Shown here: positions 3,908 to 9,894 of the stretch, one piece after another | How the letters are laid out: each line of letters starts with the position of its first letter | Position numbering within the stretch: the stretch's first letter is position 1 | NCBI GenBank assembly: GCA_024641305.1 | Contig: JAHEDI010000019.1 | Location: 1 to 63,234, forward strand | Reading direction: 5' to 3' | From: a bacterium | Lineage (GTDB): Bacteria > Actinomycetota > Acidimicrobiia > Spongiisociales > JAENVV01 | DNA length: 63,234 nt | Translations under genes and position numbers: made by a program | Notes under the pieces: generated by a model | Database searches by the model: none | The model's input: only the letters and a program-made list of their open reading frames with translations | Told to the model about the DNA's origin: nothing

Positions 3908-3942
3908 CTAGACTGATCATACGCAGTCAAATGGAGGAACCT

Positions 3943-4896
3943 GTGGAGTTGCTGACGCCGACGTTGATTTTTGCCTTTGCCCTGCTGGTGGTGTGGTTCC
4001 TGCTCAGGCGCAGTACCGAAGCTCGCAAAGCCGCTCTCAAAGACGCCGGGATGCCGGTTCGTTCCAAAGCCGGGTCAAAAGGCGGCGAAATCGTCGTCCA
4101 TGAGCGGCCCCGCCCGACGGTGGTTGCCTTCCATGTCCGGGACGATGTTGCCGAGGTGACGTTCGACGTACCCCTTCCGGCGGGCGGCGCCGACGAGGTG
4201 ATGCAAGAACTTCTGGTCGCCGAAGCGCTCGAGGTTGTGCGCGAGAAACAACACACCCTTCCCATCACTCAGGTCAGCAAAGTCACCGCCTTTGCAGGTC
4301 GCGGCGGCGATCCCATCAAGGTCGGTACGATGGAGCTCCCGACACGAGGCGAGCTTCCCCCACCGCTGGTGGCCGCCCCACAACTCCACCTCGGACATGT
4401 CGGATTTGACCCGATTGATGCACAGTTCGAGGGCGACAGCGAAGTCCCATCCACCGTTACGAAGTCCCGCTCGGACACCCTGGGTCCGATTGGCGCCGAG
4501 CTCCGTATTCCAAAGGCGGTCGAAGTTGGTTTACGCGGTCAGGGAATCGATCCAGCCGAGATGGATTCGGGTCAACTGGTGGCCGGTCTCCTGAGGTTGT
4601 TTGGGTATGCCGTGGTCGACGGGGGCGTCCCTGCTAGCTACACCGCCAGCAAAGGTGGGTCAGTCACGTTTGTCCGTCAGGTATCCCACGAAGCCGACGA
4701 TTCTCCGGAGCTAGACGAGAAAGACATGCGAACCTTTCTCGTCGATTTCCTATCGTCGAAGGCCGACCGTGGATTATTGGTCTCGGACAAATACGGACCG
4801 TTCAGTGTCTATCAGATGGAAAAGGCTGAGCCGCGTATCCAGTTCGTAACCCGTGAACGTCTTCAGAAGTTCATAGACGCCCTCGCCCTGAACTAG
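3943..4896 (+). CDS. Membrane-anchored protein of unknown function
   Basis: 317 aa; I do not recognise the family. One hydrophobic helix at residues 7-21 ends in RRS, predicting an N-terminal anchor with a cytoplasmic body. The rest is soluble, with a proline-rich linker near residues 130-145 and a C-terminal domain containing RTFLVDFLSS...GLLVSDKYGPFSV and a final FIDALALN helix. I chose GTG 3943 because GGAGG at 3933-3937 is correctly spaced for it. An ATG 12 bases upstream is in frame but overlaps that site. It stands alone between whiB and tatA. The C-terminal part faintly recalls restriction-endonuclease-like folds (DUF2034/Mrr-like), but I see no firm catalytic motif. Confidence 0.75.
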   Translation: MELLTPTLIFAFALLVVWFLLRRSTEARKAALKDAGMPVRSKAGSKGGEIVVHERPRPTVVAFHVRDDVAEVTFDVPLPAGGADEVMQELLVAEALEVVREKQHTLPITQVSKVTAFAGRGGDPIKVGTMELPTRGELPPPLVAAPQLHLGHVGFDPIDAQFEGDSEVPSTVTKSRSDTLGPIGAELRIPKAVEVGLRGQGIDPAEMDSGQLVAGLLRLFGYAVVDGGVPASYTASKGGSVTFVRQVSHEADDSPELDEKDMRTFLVDFLSSKADRGLLVSDKYGPFSVYQMEKAEPRIQFVTRERLQKFIDALALN

Positions 4897-5022: not shown

Positions 5023-5214
5023 ATGGGTATTCCAAAAGGCGGAGAATGGATCGTCATTCTCATCGTGGTTCTCTTGCTCTTCGGTGCCCGCAAACTCCCT
5101 GATCTGGCTCGCTCGTTGGGCGCCTCGACCAAGGAATTCCGCAAGGGTATCGAAGAAGGCGCCAAGCCAGACGAAAGCGCCAAGCCAAGCGATTCTTCCA
5201 CACCGGAGTCCTAA
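5023..5214 (+). CDS. tatA: Sec-independent (Tat) translocase subunit TatA
   Basis: 63 aa, a typical TatA/E size. One N-terminal membrane helix (about residues 8-22) ends in the conserved FG, followed by the amphipathic helix ARKLPDLARSLGASTKEFRKG and a charged tail. TatA oligomers form the pore for folded twin-arginine substrates. The ATG at 5023 has AAAGGA upstream. A longer frame from 4957 adds only non-homologous residues and is rejected. No tatB or tatC is adjacent. Confidence 0.93.
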   Translation: MGIPKGGEWIVILIVVLLLFGARKLPDLARSLGASTKEFRKGIEEGAKPDESAKPSDSSTPES

Positions 5215-5263
5215 CCACCTCTACGAGTCGGCCTTGGGCCGAACACAATTTCTCCCATCATTC

Positions 5264-5290
5264 GGGAACTCTTGCGTTTCGCGCTCCGTT
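5264..5290 (+). promoter_or_regulatory. ECF-type (SigE-like) promoter upstream of the sigma factor operon
   Basis: GGGAACT (5264-5270), 16 bases, then CGTT (5287-5290). This fits the GGAAC...CGTT consensus of actinobacterial SigE-type ECF sigma factors and suggests the operon is autoregulated. The boxes end 14 bases before the GTG start, so the 5' leader would be very short. Confidence 0.55.
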
Positions 5291-5304
5291 GAGAGGTATG
5301 AGCC

Positions 5305-5808
5305 GTGACAGACGGCATGCCACTCTCGTGGGAAGACGTTGCCAAAACACATGGGCGCAAGATCTACAACTTCGCGTATCGCCTCACCGGGAATCCTGAC
5401 GATGCCAAAGACCTGGCCCAAGATGTGCTGCTGCGCGTCGAACGGGGCCTCGCCAATTACACTCCCGGCTCCTTTGAAGGCTGGCTGTGGCGGATTACCC
5501 GCAACGCATTCCTTGACGATGTTCGCCGCAAGAAGCGGCGACCGACAACAGCCCTGCCCGACGACCTCGACCGAACTAATCTCATTTCGACCCCGGCCCC
5601 TGACGAGGTGCTCGCCTCGATCAGGCTGGGAGACGATGTCCAGAAGGCCCTGCTCGGTCTCCCATATGACTTTCGCGAGGCGGTTGTACTGTGCGATGTG
5701 GTCGGCCTCTCGTATGACGAGATCGCCCTGGCCGTCGCCGCACCCGTCGGGACGGTCCGAAGTCGGATTCATCGAGGCCGCAAGATGATGCGGGAAGCAT
5801 TGACGTGA
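5305..5808 (+). CDS. ECF sigma factor, SigE-like
   Basis: 167 aa. Region 2 lies at about residues 15-85, with FAYRLTGNPDDAKDLAQDVLLRV and the -10-binding WLWRITRNAFLDDVRRKKR. Region 4 lies at about 110-165, with LPYDFREAVVLCDVVGLSYDEIA and a helix-turn-helix ending GTVRSRIHRGR. The GTG start has GAGAGG eight bases upstream. The stop overlaps the anti-sigma start as GTGA. Its partners (zinc anti-sigma, RseB-like) and the matching ECF promoter just upstream point to envelope or oxidative stress control, as for mycobacterial SigE. That role is inferred. Confidence 0.92.
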   Translation: MTDGMPLSWEDVAKTHGRKIYNFAYRLTGNPDDAKDLAQDVLLRVERGLANYTPGSFEGWLWRITRNAFLDDVRRKKRRPTTALPDDLDRTNLISTPAPDEVLASIRLGDDVQKALLGLPYDFREAVVLCDVVGLSYDEIALAVAAPVGTVRSRIHRGRKMMREALT

Positions 5809-6218
5809 TCCATCTTGGTGAACTCGCCTCCGCGTACCTCGACGGGGAGACCACCGAGCAAGAGGCTGCCAAACTCGTGGCCCACCTCGGCAGCTGTCAG
5901 GCCTGCCAACGCGAGATGGAAGACCTTCATGCTGCTCGGTCCCTGCTTCGCTCCCTCCCTGTCCTGGAGATGCCCGAGTCAATTCGGGCCGATCTCGGAC
6001 TCGTGCCAAACGTGGTTCCTTTGGCCAGACGACCACTCACCTGGGTGGGTGCAGTCGCGGCAGCCGTCATGATTTTCATCGTGGCCGCGACGGCCACGGC
6101 GCCCGACCCCGTCGGGCTTTCGCTGCGCGAGGTTTCAATTCAGTACGAGCAGCAGACCCTGATCGACGGCGGGGTACTTCCGGTCGTTGGTGTCGTCCAG
6201 GCCGGAGGCGGGCAATGA
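5805..6218 (+). CDS. Zinc-finger (ZAS/RsgA-type) membrane anti-sigma factor
   Basis: 137 aa. The N-terminal anti-sigma domain has the ZAS signature H27-x3-C31-x2-C34, with H3 as the likely fourth zinc ligand. One membrane helix lies at about residues 78-98, and a short extracytoplasmic tail of about 38 residues follows. It should hold the preceding sigma factor at the membrane until cleaved or released. It begins with GTG overlapping the sigma stop and ends overlapping the RseB-like gene (ATGA), so the three proteins are made in a coupled way. Confidence 0.9.
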   Translation: MIHLGELASAYLDGETTEQEAAKLVAHLGSCQACQREMEDLHAARSLLRSLPVLEMPESIRADLGLVPNVVPLARRPLTWVGAVAAAVMIFIVAATATAPDPVGLSLREVSIQYEQQTLIDGGVLPVVGVVQAGGGQ

Positions 6219-7120
6219 TCGGTCGGTCGCTGGCCATGGTCTTCATGGTTCTGGTTGTGATGGTCGGATCGGCGACGGCAGCAATGGCCAACGAATTGAC
6301 CGACCGACTGGGCGACAGTGCGGGCGTTGCCTATTCGGGCGAACAATCGGTCGTATGCAATCAGCCAGATGGGCGATACTCAGAATTATTCGACGTCGGG
6401 CAGAATGGCCTCGGGATCACCGTCACCGTCGACCCGGCAGGGACGACCCGGGCTGCGAAAGCCGGCGCCCTTTCGACCGGTCTCAGTTCTCGGTATGAAA
6501 TCGATCTATCCGCTGGGGGAGAGGTTCTGGGCCGGCCCGTCGAGGTCATCGAGGTTCTCGATGGTGACACCCTCCGAGTCCGGTTGTCGTTCGATGTCGA
6601 ATCCAGCGTCCTTCTGATGTCTGAGATCTTCAATAGTGACGGTTCGACGTATTGCACCACGCGGTTTATCGAGTTCACTCTGGGATCGCCAGGTCCGGCC
6701 CAGGGGGTGTCGACGGTCGATAGCCCCGAGCCGGTTGGCGCTGTTCAGGCCGACGATGTCGATCGGACGCTTCCGATCCAGTTGGCCGGGTTCAGTCGCT
6801 TGCAGGTGCGAGGCGGTTCTCAGTCGGACTTGTCGTCGGCCTTCTACGGTGATGGGCTATTCACGTTTCAACTCACCAATTCGAGTCGGCCGATCTCGAT
6901 ACCAGAACTGGACGATCAGCCGCGCGTGACCATCGAAGGCCACGAGTACCAACGAATTTTTGAGTTGGGTCGAGCCGTGTACGCATGGCAGAGCGACCTC
7001 GGTGGGTACGTGCTCGTCGGTGAGCTGCCGGTCGATGTGCAAGCCAGGGTGTTGTCTGAACTTCCTGACCCCCACAGTCGGGGATTTTTCGAGCGACTCT
7101 GGGACGGTCTGTTCGGCTGA
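6215..7120 (+). CDS. RseB/MucB-like extracytoplasmic regulator
   Basis: 301 aa with a Sec signal peptide (residues 1-25, cleavage near AMA-NE). The mature part has the lipoprotein-like fold features of RseB: a VAYSGEQ strand early on, a two-domain layout, and a C-terminal domain with VYAWQSDLGGYVLVGELPVDVQARVLSELP. In Gram-negatives RseB shields the anti-sigma factor RseA from proteolysis. Here it sits directly behind a membrane anti-sigma gene, so a matching role is likely. Similarity is weak in the middle, and the family call rests on context plus these segments. Confidence 0.7.
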   Translation: MIGRSLAMVFMVLVVMVGSATAAMANELTDRLGDSAGVAYSGEQSVVCNQPDGRYSELFDVGQNGLGITVTVDPAGTTRAAKAGALSTGLSSRYEIDLSAGGEVLGRPVEVIEVLDGDTLRVRLSFDVESSVLLMSEIFNSDGSTYCTTRFIEFTLGSPGPAQGVSTVDSPEPVGAVQADDVDRTLPIQLAGFSRLQVRGGSQSDLSSAFYGDGLFTFQLTNSSRPISIPELDDQPRVTIEGHEYQRIFELGRAVYAWQSDLGGYVLVGELPVDVQARVLSELPDPHSRGFFERLWDGLFG

Positions 7121-7134
7121 CCGTGGTCGGTCAG
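7117..7134. terminator. Short shared terminator-like hairpin between convergent genes
   Basis: CTGACCG (7117-7123) and CGGTCAG (7128-7134) form a 7-bp stem with a TGGT loop. The palindrome contains the stop codons of both the plus-strand rseB-like gene and the minus-strand peroxiredoxin. There is no T-run, so termination strength is uncertain. Confidence 0.4.
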
Positions 7135-7589
7135 ATAGACAACAGACTTTGGTGATAGGCCGCCATCGAGCGAGCTTCCCTCAGGATTGGCGTAGCAACG
7201 ATGTCTCGAACAATCCCGTCGACGTCAAGGACGTACGTTGAACGCATGGCAACGCCTATCGCCTCGTTGAAACATCCGTAGGCTTGAGCCACGGCCCCGT
7301 GCGGCCAGAAATCTGACAGGATCGGGAAGGAAACGCCAAGTTCGGCCGCCCATTTTGCATTGGACGGCATCGGGTCACAAGTGATGACAACGATATTGGT
7401 ATCAAGGTCGGTGAGGGACGAGAGGTTGTCACGTACTTCACACACCTCGCCCTCACAGACGGCGGTGAATGGGAAAGGAATGAACTTGATCAGGGCCTTT
7501 TTACCCAGCAGTGATTCAAGTGATACGAGCGACCGGGTCTGGTCGACCAGTTCAAAGCCCGGTGCTGGCTTTCCGATCTCGGCGGTCAT
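7131..7589 (-). CDS. Peroxiredoxin (AhpE/PrxQ-Bcp-like)
   Basis: 152 aa thioredoxin-fold peroxidase reducing H2O2 and organic peroxides. The peroxidatic cysteine is C45 in PFTAVC. A second cysteine, C50, gives the C-x4-C spacing of PrxQ/Bcp enzymes, which form an intramolecular disulfide resolved by thioredoxin. The start ATG at 7589 (MTAEIGKPAPGFEL) matches family N-termini; upstream in-frame residues are unrelated. It is the last gene of the minus-strand cluster and faces the sigma operon. Confidence 0.9.
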   Translation of the reverse strand: MTAEIGKPAPGFELVDQTRSLVSLESLLGKKALIKFIPFPFTAVCEGEVCEVRDNLSSLTDLDTNIVVITCDPMPSNAKWAAELGVSFPILSDFWPHGAVAQAYGCFNEAIGVAMRSTYVLDVDGIVRDIVATPILREARSMAAYHQSLLSI

Positions 7590-7639: not shown

Positions 7640-8728
7640 CTAGAATTCTGGCAACAAAACCCGGGCGGCCCAGGCGACCTGGTCGGTTAGCTCTCCGCCG
7701 ATCGGGAGGTTGGATGGCTCTTCCCAGACGCTTTCGAGAGCTTCCGATCCCCACCGTCGGGAGACCTCATCACAGAACTCGACGCCTTCCTGGTGGAGTT
7801 CTTCGGTGAGTTCGATGCCGACGAGTTTGGTCAATGGCTGTTCAGGGATTCCAGGTTCAGATTGTTTGACGCGGTGGGCGGTCTCGATCGCTCCGCGGTC
7901 AGGGATCAGGTTGCTCGCCGCCGCCAAGACATAGTCGCCATACCCGCTGACGAAGCCGATCGCCGCCCGGGCCTTTGCCTGAGCTTCCGATGTCGAGGTT
8001 GGCGAGAGAAAGCCACTGAGGCCGTCTGCGTCCGCCATCATCTGCTGGATGTTGTTCGGGTCGCTCAGATTTTGCAGCGTCTCCATGAGATGGGATGTGT
8101 CGAAGGTGACACCCGCCAAGTGCTCCTCAACCAGGTCGATGACGTATTGCCGCAGCCAAGGCCCTGCGAATGCCGCGTCGTGGATGCCGTTTCGTAGAGC
8201 CACCCATAATCGGACCTGGCGGGGTTCGAGTTGGTAGTCGGAGGCGAAATCTTCGACGTTGTCGACGATGACATATCGGGCCCCGGCCGGGTTGGCCGGT
8301 AGACCGATGTCGAACTGGCCGATCGCCCGGTGCGAAAGGAACCCGATCGTTGACCCGATCTGCATGCCGAGTAGCGCTGGGCCGAGCGGTTTGAGCAACT
8401 GACTCATCGGATCCGAACCGCCGCCGAGGTCATCGTACTGGCTGGCGAGCGGCTCGACAAGGTATGAGAACGATTGCAGCCGCTGAGTTGCCCAGTCATG
8501 GCGGTCGATCGGAACGACATCGAGCGAGTCGGGCGCCCGCAGATGAGTCGCTGCTTGGATCTGGAGTTGGGCGAGTCGGCCCAGTTCGATGTACTCATCA
8601 GCCAACCAGGGGTCGATCGGCTCCCGGTCACCGGCTAGCTGTACCGCGACCTCCCTGGCCAGCTTCCAATTCACCGGGCCTGGCTGGTTGAACAGTTCGA
8701 TAAGTTGGGAAAAGATGTCGTCTGCCAT
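7640..8728 (-). CDS. DUF2342 (Zincin_2) family protein lacking the HExxH zinc motif
   Basis: 362 aa, a normal family length. The family signatures are clear: GMQIGSTIGFLSHRAIGQFD (residues 121-140) and VRLWVALxxxxH. In active-looking members the latter continues HEVTHRAQF. Here residues 179-183 read RNGIH, so the first zinc histidine and the catalytic glutamate are replaced and only the last histidine remains. Family members in Actinobacteria are annotated as zinc-dependent metalloproteases or F420-biosynthesis-associated proteins. This one is unlikely to be a working zincin. The ATG at 8728 is preferred over the TTG six bases upstream. It follows the HtrA-like gene with almost no gap, so the two are probably co-transcribed. 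Confidence 0.8.
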   Translation of the reverse strand: MADDIFSQLIELFNQPGPVNWKLAREVAVQLAGDREPIDPWLADEYIELGRLAQLQIQAATHLRAPDSLDVVPIDRHDWATQRLQSFSYLVEPLASQYDDLGGGSDPMSQLLKPLGPALLGMQIGSTIGFLSHRAIGQFDIGLPANPAGARYVIVDNVEDFASDYQLEPRQVRLWVALRNGIHDAAFAGPWLRQYVIDLVEEHLAGVTFDTSHLMETLQNLSDPNNIQQMMADADGLSGFLSPTSTSEAQAKARAAIGFVSGYGDYVLAAASNLIPDRGAIETAHRVKQSEPGIPEQPLTKLVGIELTEELHQEGVEFCDEVSRRWGSEALESVWEEPSNLPIGGELTDQVAWAARVLLPEF

Positions 8729-8734
8729 GTGCAA

Positions 8735-9880
8735 TCACGATTCCGGATGGCGGTCTAGGGTCACTTCGATTGCGATCGTTTCGAACTCTCGCAGAATCTG
8801 AACTGTGACGTTGTCACCTTCACGATAGGTCCGTAGCAGCGCTACTAGTTCGGCCGTTGACGTAATTTCGTTGGCGTTGATGCCGACGATGACGTCCCCT
8901 TCGCGGGCACCACCAGCTCGCAGCGGCGACCCGGCGGGTAGCGCGAAAACCTCAACGCCACCAAGTAAGGAGTCCACGCCTTGCAGTCCCAGGTACCCGT
9001 GGGGGACCTGACCAGTCGCAATCAGCTCGTCGGCGATGGCGAGCCCGGTCGCTATCGGGATGGCATACCCGGGTCCGTCGTCCTCCGCCACGATGGTCAG
9101 GATGCCAGCTACACGTTGGTCAACATCGAGAAGAGGTCCGCCGCTCATCTGGATGGGGAACCCACGGTCGAGTTCGATGAGGTCATACAGGCGCCAGGTG
9201 TCGTTGATATTGAGCCTTTGAGCCGTGCCGATCACGGTTGCTTGATCCGACAAACCCAGAAGGGTGGTGACCCTAGAGCCAACGGTGAGTGGTTCGTCTG
9301 ACGGTTCGCCCATCACGACGAGCGGCGACCCATCAATCCGAAGTACCGCCAGATTCGTAACAGGATCGGTCCCGACCACCGTTGCGATGTAACGGTTCTG
9401 CTGGTCGTCGATCACACTGATCGACTCGGCGGTCCCGACGATATGAGAGTTGGTGAGAACATACGTTCCGTCGTTGATGGCTATTCCCGAACCGAGTCCG
9501 ATCTCGTCGCTCACGTCGCCAGTGACCTCAATGGTCACTGCGAATGGAGCCGAGACGACGGCGATGGTGGTTTCAGGAGGCGGCGGGGACGTCGTAGTTG
9601 TCACCGGATTGGCCACCGGAACGGGCACCTGCAGCTGCGTAAACGCCAATGATGTGCCGATCCCGAGGACCAGGAGAGCGCTCAACCAGCCTGCCCATTT
9701 CGACCATTGACGGCGTGAACCCGGCTGGCGATGGGTGATGGCGCCCTGGGCCGCCAGCGGCGTCGGGCGTGGCTTGGACGCTTCTCCGGCAGGGGTGGCC
9801 GGCAACGGGGGCGGGGTGTCACCGGAGCGACCAGCGAACGGATCGGGCATCGGAATATCGTCGGACGGCTCGTCTGGCAT
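8735..9880 (-). CDS. HtrA/DegP-like trypsin-fold protein with PDZ domain and altered catalytic triad
   Basis: 381 aa. A proline-rich cytoplasmic N-terminus (1-60) precedes one membrane helix (about 62-82), a trypsin-like domain (about 108-285) and a PDZ domain (about 290-375, with GDVIVGINANEITS). The expected triad is H146 (TNSHIVG), then an aspartate in TDLAVL, then the GNSGGP serine. Here the middle residue is N176 (VTNLAVL) and the serine loop reads QMSGGPL (S246). Loss of the aspartate should strongly reduce or abolish proteolysis, so a chaperone or scaffold role is possible. I take ATG 9880 because a leaderless-type promoter sits exactly upstream; a longer frame to 9940 would run through moaE. 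Confidence 0.85.
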   Translation of the reverse strand: MPDEPSDDIPMPDPFAGRSGDTPPPLPATPAGEASKPRPTPLAAQGAITHRQPGSRRQWSKWAGWLSALLVLGIGTSLAFTQLQVPVPVANPVTTTTSPPPPETTIAVVSAPFAVTIEVTGDVSDEIGLGSGIAINDGTYVLTNSHIVGTAESISVIDDQQNRYIATVVGTDPVTNLAVLRIDGSPLVVMGEPSDEPLTVGSRVTTLLGLSDQATVIGTAQRLNINDTWRLYDLIELDRGFPIQMSGGPLLDVDQRVAGILTIVAEDDGPGYAIPIATGLAIADELIATGQVPHGYLGLQGVDSLLGGVEVFALPAGSPLRAGGAREGDVIVGINANEITSTAELVALLRTYREGDNVTVQILREFETIAIEVTLDRHPES

Positions 9881-9894
9881 ATGATCATTGTATG
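9878..9894. promoter_or_regulatory. Back-to-back leaderless promoters for the HtrA-like gene and moaE
   Basis: On the plus strand TATGAT (9880-9885) lies six bases before the moaE ATG (9892). On the minus strand TACAAT (9892-9887) lies six bases before the HtrA-like ATG (9880). Each -10 hexamer overlaps the other gene's start codon, and only 11 bases separate the two genes. Neither start has a ribosome binding site. No clear -35 is seen on either side. Confidence 0.6.

Follow-up and report, generated by a model that had tools for sequence, protein, structure and literature searches.

An HtrA-like protein with a substituted active site and a DUF2342 zincin without its metal site, encoded by neighbouring genes in an uncultured acidimicrobial genus

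The window (the whole stretch of 63,234 nucleotides that was analysed) belongs to a genus of uncultured actinobacteria of the class Acidimicrobiia. On its minus strand, an htrA-like gene (9880–8735) is followed by a DUF2342 gene (8728–7640) and a peroxiredoxin gene (7589–7131), and the first two encode protease-family proteins in which active-site residues are replaced. This raises the question whether the two activities were lost together, and which role the proteins would have kept. The genomes compared, one per species, are in many cases draft assemblies; the genus was sampled by five species, each separately assembled (that of the window, G001, G002, G003, and G004), and trees were built as quick searches.

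Organization and distribution of the locus

The genes of the locus are listed below.

5305–5808, plus strand: ECF sigma factor, SigE-like (PRK09647 SigE, 216.5 bits, under the cut-off of 265)
5805–6218, plus strand: anti-sigma factor RseA (zf-HC2, one transmembrane segment, 38-aa outer tail; Gln117, which is Arg in other families)
6215–7120, plus strand: RseB-like secreted protein (MucB_RseB, 22.3 bits)
7131–7589, minus strand: peroxiredoxin, downstream of the pair and co-directed (AhpC-TSA, E 1e-27; synteny)
7640–8728, minus strand: DUF2342/Zincin_2 (TIGR03624) protein with its metal site lost (Pfam and TIGR profiles; fold matches 3cmn)
8726–8737, minus strand: junction of the htrA stop and the DUF2342 start (TGA TTGCAC ATG)
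8735–9880, minus strand: HtrA-like protein of 381 aa with a cytosolic Pro-rich tail, one transmembrane helix, a trypsin-like domain, and one PDZ domain (Pfam Trypsin_2 and PDZ_2)

The coordinates, strand, and order of the pair given in the original prediction, as well as Asn176 and RNGIH at the two active sites, were all correct. The ECF sigma/anti-sigma/RseB genes and the peroxiredoxin that it had named as neighbours were found by profile matches, MucB_RseB exactly at its cut-off. Together with a TatA gene, the genes for SigE, RseA, and the RseB-like protein occupy positions 5023–7120 of the plus strand, and moaE starts at position 9892, beyond htrA. The htrA and zincin genes are translationally coupled, and in most families they overlap by four bases (xTGA).

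The pair was found conserved throughout the order beside the SigE-RseA-RseB module, and the gene order was kept over eight families, with local losses. At the locus of family f6 and of G058 (L058–L062 and L069), neither sigE-rseA-rseB nor htrA was found, and DUF2342 and the peroxiredoxin gene were kept; most f6 genomes contain a related htrA elsewhere. The pair also persists without a close sigE match in G010, G017, G033, and G040, which shows the link to SigE to be dispensable, and a strict tie was dropped because of G010 and G017. A link between the pair and SigE is thus suggested by position, and is weakened by these genomes. Outside the order, L182 was the only one among the class- and phylum-level loci examined to show a DUF2342-HtrA neighbourhood; elsewhere, the genes close to this DUF2342 copy, as read from the sequence, are an epimerase-like gene, moaE, or mreB-like genes.

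The start codons of the divergent htrA and moaE genes are 11 bases apart (window 9878–9894). In each of the five species, a TACAAT element is located six bases upstream of the ATG of htrA, and the ATG of moaE is likewise six bases from a TATGAT element, which reads TAAGAT in two of them. This arrangement suggests that both transcripts are leaderless and that their -10 elements interleave.

Active sites of the two proteins

The following features of the two proteins were compared between species.

9635–9700, minus strand: predicted transmembrane helix of HtrA, residues 61–82 (helix in the AF2 model; hydrophobic run)
9101–9493, minus strand: trypsin-like domain (Trypsin_2 match)
9443–9445, minus strand: His146, the retained triad His (sequence comparison)
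9353–9355, minus strand: Asn176 at the position of the triad Asp
9143–9151, minus strand: Gln244-Met245-Ser246, with Gln at the Gly193 position and the nucleophile Ser kept
8756–8995, minus strand: PDZ domain (PDZ_2 match), the best-conserved part of HtrA in the genus (dN/dS 0.08–0.20)
8180–8194, minus strand: RNGIH at the HExxH site of the zincin (direct translation)
7946–7948, minus strand: Ser261 of the zincin at the position of a conserved Glu, a probable third metal ligand

The HtrA-like protein has the fold of the HtrA/Do (S1C) family, with a trypsin-like domain and a PDZ domain (Pfam profiles Trypsin_2, E 1.6e-14, and PDZ_2, E 7.8e-10), and its AF2 model matches DegP, DegS, and Mtb HtrA. 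Its Do-family score was 119 bits, below the cut-off of 416, and an intact ortholog also fell below it (254 bits); DegS models matched under their cut-off in the profile search. Counted from the ATG at 9880, His146, Asn176, and Ser246 occupy the places of the triad. The His-Asp-Ser triad with Gly193 expected of an active S1 serine protease is interrupted by Asn176 and Gln244, and the loop reads QMSGGP compared to GSSGGA in orthologs, so that the oxyanion-hole Gly (chymotrypsin 193) is gone. Outside the genus, the loop (GSSGG) was intact at all 36 orthologous loci, and the triad including Asp at all 35 where the region was complete. Inside the genus, the residue at the Gly193 position was Gln in the window, Glu in G001, Gln in G002, Asp in G003, and Gln in G004 (non-Gly in 5/5), and the oxyanion and S1 motifs around the active site were rewritten. 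Asn176 is not fixed, being present in four of the five species; G003 has Asp, and with it the full His-Asp-Ser set, still without Gly193. In G001, Thr replaces Ser246.

On these residues, the HtrA-like protein of the genus is most likely a pseudoprotease. Trypsin with an Asp-to-Asn change keeps a little activity and mesotrypsin functions with a non-Gly residue at 193; because of this, and because of the full triad in G003, some residual activity is possible. HtrA could even have remained an active protease of altered pH optimum or specificity, with the zincin as a non-peptidase binding protein. Ser246 and His146, kept in four of the five species, and the Asp of G003 agree with such a protease, but Gly193 is lost in 5/5 species, G001 has a Thr nucleophile, the oxyanion and S1 motifs are rewritten, and there is the precedent of MamO, which together make this reading distinctly unlikely.

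MamO is a proven HtrA pseudoprotease of magnetotactic bacteria, inactive with Glu at 193 and a Thr nucleophile, and its authors explained that a non-Gly residue at 193 disfavours the active conformation (PMC4794232). Both MamO and the protein of this genus have an HtrA-type domain with a non-Gly residue 193, a Thr nucleophile (here in G001), and an active HtrA elsewhere in the genome. They differ in that MamO has a TauE domain, whereas the genus HtrA has one PDZ domain, a linked zincin gene, and a SigE context, and in the Asp-to-Asn change of four species. As judged from these residues, the apparent breakage of HtrA in the genus is convergent with that of MamO.

The DUF2342 protein was a clear member of its family (PF10103, E 6.9e-65; TIGR03624, 212.9 bits with a cut-off of 136), and 3cmn was the only confident match of its AlphaFold model in Foldseek (E 4.5e-11, TMt 0.82). 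At residues 179–183, counted from the ATG at 8728, RNGIH replaces HExxH, with RNG[IV]H in all five species of the genus, and Ser261 replaces the downstream Glu, so that neither HExxH nor the probable third ligand of a zinc metallopeptidase is present. This Glu was found in 41/41 intact paralogs; among orthologs, it was present in 15 of the 17 that have HExxH and in 12 of the 31 that lack it (Fisher p 0.002, with no correction for kinship). HExxH and Glu thus go together, which supports Glu as the probable third metal ligand, and the protein with RNGIH would be non-catalytic. The original claim of two broken active sites is therefore confirmed, and the breaks go further than predicted (Ser261 and Gln244), but Asn176 did not prove to be fixed in the genus.

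A second DUF2342 copy (C86; in G000 at L070, 9427–10449) has an intact HECTH and the Glu. This copy adjoins tilS, hpt, and ftsH, and its site was intact in all 41 genomes. The site of the htrA-linked copy was broken in 33 of 48 orthologs (0 of 41 for the tilS-linked paralog), with a minimum of six changes on the tree, and a broken metal site is thus the common state of this copy. According to a survey of substituted HExxH motifs, HExxH is present in only 43% of PF10103 members (PMC3650047). The sequence family and the fold (DUF2342/3cmn) are shared with our case; the passages of the survey that were consulted, however, tie the losses neither to a lineage or an htrA neighbour nor to a paralog that is strictly intact. 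A literature search found no paper on the function of DUF2342.

Separate histories of the two losses

Two dead proteases side by side had been taken in the original prediction as more than chance would give. The comparison does not bear this out: as 33 of 48 zincin orthologs are broken, a broken zincin is the expected state beside any given HtrA, and a broken DUF2342 adjoining a broken HtrA is no more than chance predicts. Outside the genus, the broken zincin was always found beside an intact HtrA or with none adjacent, and in families f4, f5, and f8 an intact triad and an intact HExxH occur side by side, a finding that the prediction itself had named as evidence against it. Its proposed check, whether orthologs keep both substitutions and the gene order, gave a partly positive answer, since the order is conserved and HExxH is lost in 5/5 species of the genus, but the triad Asp in only 4/5.

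The rates on the branch leading to the genus also differ. On this stem, HtrA accumulated 2.19 changes per column, more than on any other inner branch of its tree, and DUF2342 0.57. Among columns conserved in other families, 23 of 73 (32%) were changed in every genus member tested for HtrA, compared to 0–11% for ten neighbouring genes. The zincin rate on the stem is normal and the HtrA rate extremely fast, a difference of about fourfold. HtrA was broken once, at the level of the genus and along a very long branch, and breakage of the zincin is common and independent.

These results bear on the model in which both proteins lost catalysis together on becoming one non-proteolytic complex in the genus. 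The genes are adjacent and translationally coupled, and both are broken in 5/5 species and under purifying selection, as that model would have it. However, zincin losses occur throughout the order beside intact HtrAs, the HtrA loss is a single separate event, and the stem rates are about fourfold apart. The model is largely refuted as a coupled event, and we consider it very improbable; joint loss of the two activities was rejected. The adjacency of two broken enzymes makes joint inactivation a tempting inference, which the present data correct.

A sequencing artefact or frameshift was also rejected, as five separately assembled genomes agree and the frames are open. Loss of reading frame, which the prediction had named as a sign of decay, was not seen: both frames are open in the five species, with a protein divergence of HtrA of up to 46%. 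Within the genus, dN/dS was 0.04–0.10 for the zincin, close to the values of its intact paralog (0.03–0.06) and of the peroxiredoxin (0.05–0.09), and 0.16–0.29 for HtrA compared to 0.03–0.08 for the canonical C58 HtrA of the same genomes; these pairwise values are rough at dS above 1, and rows in which C58 matched a non-orthologous gene at 27–31% identity were ignored. Within HtrA, the PDZ domain was the tightest-constrained part in most pairs. Low dN/dS with intact frames argues against simple decay, and neither gene decays neutrally; both are under purifying selection. With regard to non-proteolytic roles under selection, as originally proposed, both proteins do look non-proteolytic, dN/dS is low, the order is conserved, and the genes are coupled, which makes a functional link plausible, but joint selection did not find support.

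It could still be argued that HtrA, being redundant with the canonical HtrA present elsewhere, is decaying under relaxed constraint, the zincin having lost catalysis earlier. Its dN/dS, which exceeds the canonical value by a factor of three to five, the unfixed Asn176/Asp and Ser/Thr positions, and the long stem would fit. Against this, the frame is intact in five species despite the protein divergence, dN/dS is well below 1 with the PDZ domain tightest in most pairs, and the htrA start codon and TACAAT element are conserved; we regard such decay as unlikely. The locus offers a clean natural experiment, an order-wide pair of which the cytosolic member repeatedly loses its metal site although strong selection still acts on its sequence, and of which the membrane member has a single loss of catalysis.

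Possible role of the pair

The reading that we prefer, with a probability of about 0.6 as a whole, is that of a non-catalytic, cytosolic zincin-fold partner coupled to an HtrA of DegS architecture that turned into a PDZ pseudoprotease in the genus. The locus would be an order-wide envelope-stress module of SigE, a membrane-anchored anti-sigma factor, an RseB-like protein, and HtrA on the opposite strand. This HtrA (cytosolic tail, one transmembrane helix, trypsin domain, and one PDZ domain) would be coupled to the zincin-fold DUF2342 protein in the cytosol, whose copy would represent a lineage prone to metal-site loss, with selection keeping the fold and not the metal site; on the cytosolic side, DUF2342 would probably serve HtrA as an adaptor or structural partner. 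The ancestor of the genus would then have lost HtrA catalysis, with the oxyanion-hole Gly absent from every species and the triad Asp from most, and kept the fold and PDZ domain, so that HtrA would now most likely be a membrane-tethered PDZ binding or scaffold protein. Proteolysis may be supplied by the second HtrA (C58), which has an intact GNSGGP, and by the intact second zincin (C86). Coupling and synteny point to a partnership, and an adaptor role and a physical complex may follow from it. The zincin is predicted to be cytosolic and the catalytic domain of HtrA to lie outside, which counts against a complex, and the DUF2342 genes without an adjacent htrA in f6 and G058 also count against the preferred reading.

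Pseudoproteases of both kinds are already known (PMC4794232; PMC3650047). What is new, as far as the literature found goes, is that one DUF2342 copy, coupled to htrA, has lost its site recurrently in a lineage-specific manner, together with the candidate genus-level HtrA pseudoprotease beside SigE. For DUF2342, a widespread actinobacterial family, this argues for a role without need of catalysis, and the HtrA and SigE stress module is where to look for it.

Two known systems resemble the module. A SigE-like factor, a zinc-finger anti-sigma factor, a membrane HtrA, and a TatA/B gene are shared with the sigE/rseA-htrA-tatB locus of Mtb (PMC10027907). The gene set is adjacent but rearranged here, with htrA on the opposite strand together with DUF2342 and the peroxiredoxin gene, an RseB-like gene added, and HtrA broken, whereas mycobacterial HtrA is an essential protease. 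With DegS-RseA-RseB of E. coli (PMC8103513), the locus shares an HtrA with a transmembrane anchor and a single PDZ domain, a transmembrane anti-sigma factor, and RseB, and S2P-family proteins are present in the genome. Here, however, the anti-sigma factor is of the zinc-finger type with its 38-aa tail, and HtrA is catalytically broken in the genus; the likeness is one of architecture and synteny.

It has also to be considered that the order-wide HtrA may act, like DegS, as site-1 protease in an actinobacterial SigE-RseA-RseB pathway with a cytosolic zincin-fold adaptor. The genus would then have abandoned proteolytic activation, and HtrA would have become a PDZ sensor binding RseA/RseB without cutting. 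The one Arg of the RseA outer tail that is conserved in at least 90% of 14 loci of other families (residue 117, window 6153–6155) is replaced by Gln in each of the four members of the genus that were compared; such a change is expected if a cleavage or recognition site was released, although Arg117-to-Gln is a single event outside statistical testing. We consider this more specific pathway unlikely.

Between whiB and tatA, a gene for a protein of 321 aa (window 3931–4896) was found that gave no Pfam match at E 0.01, and it is present in many families of the order.
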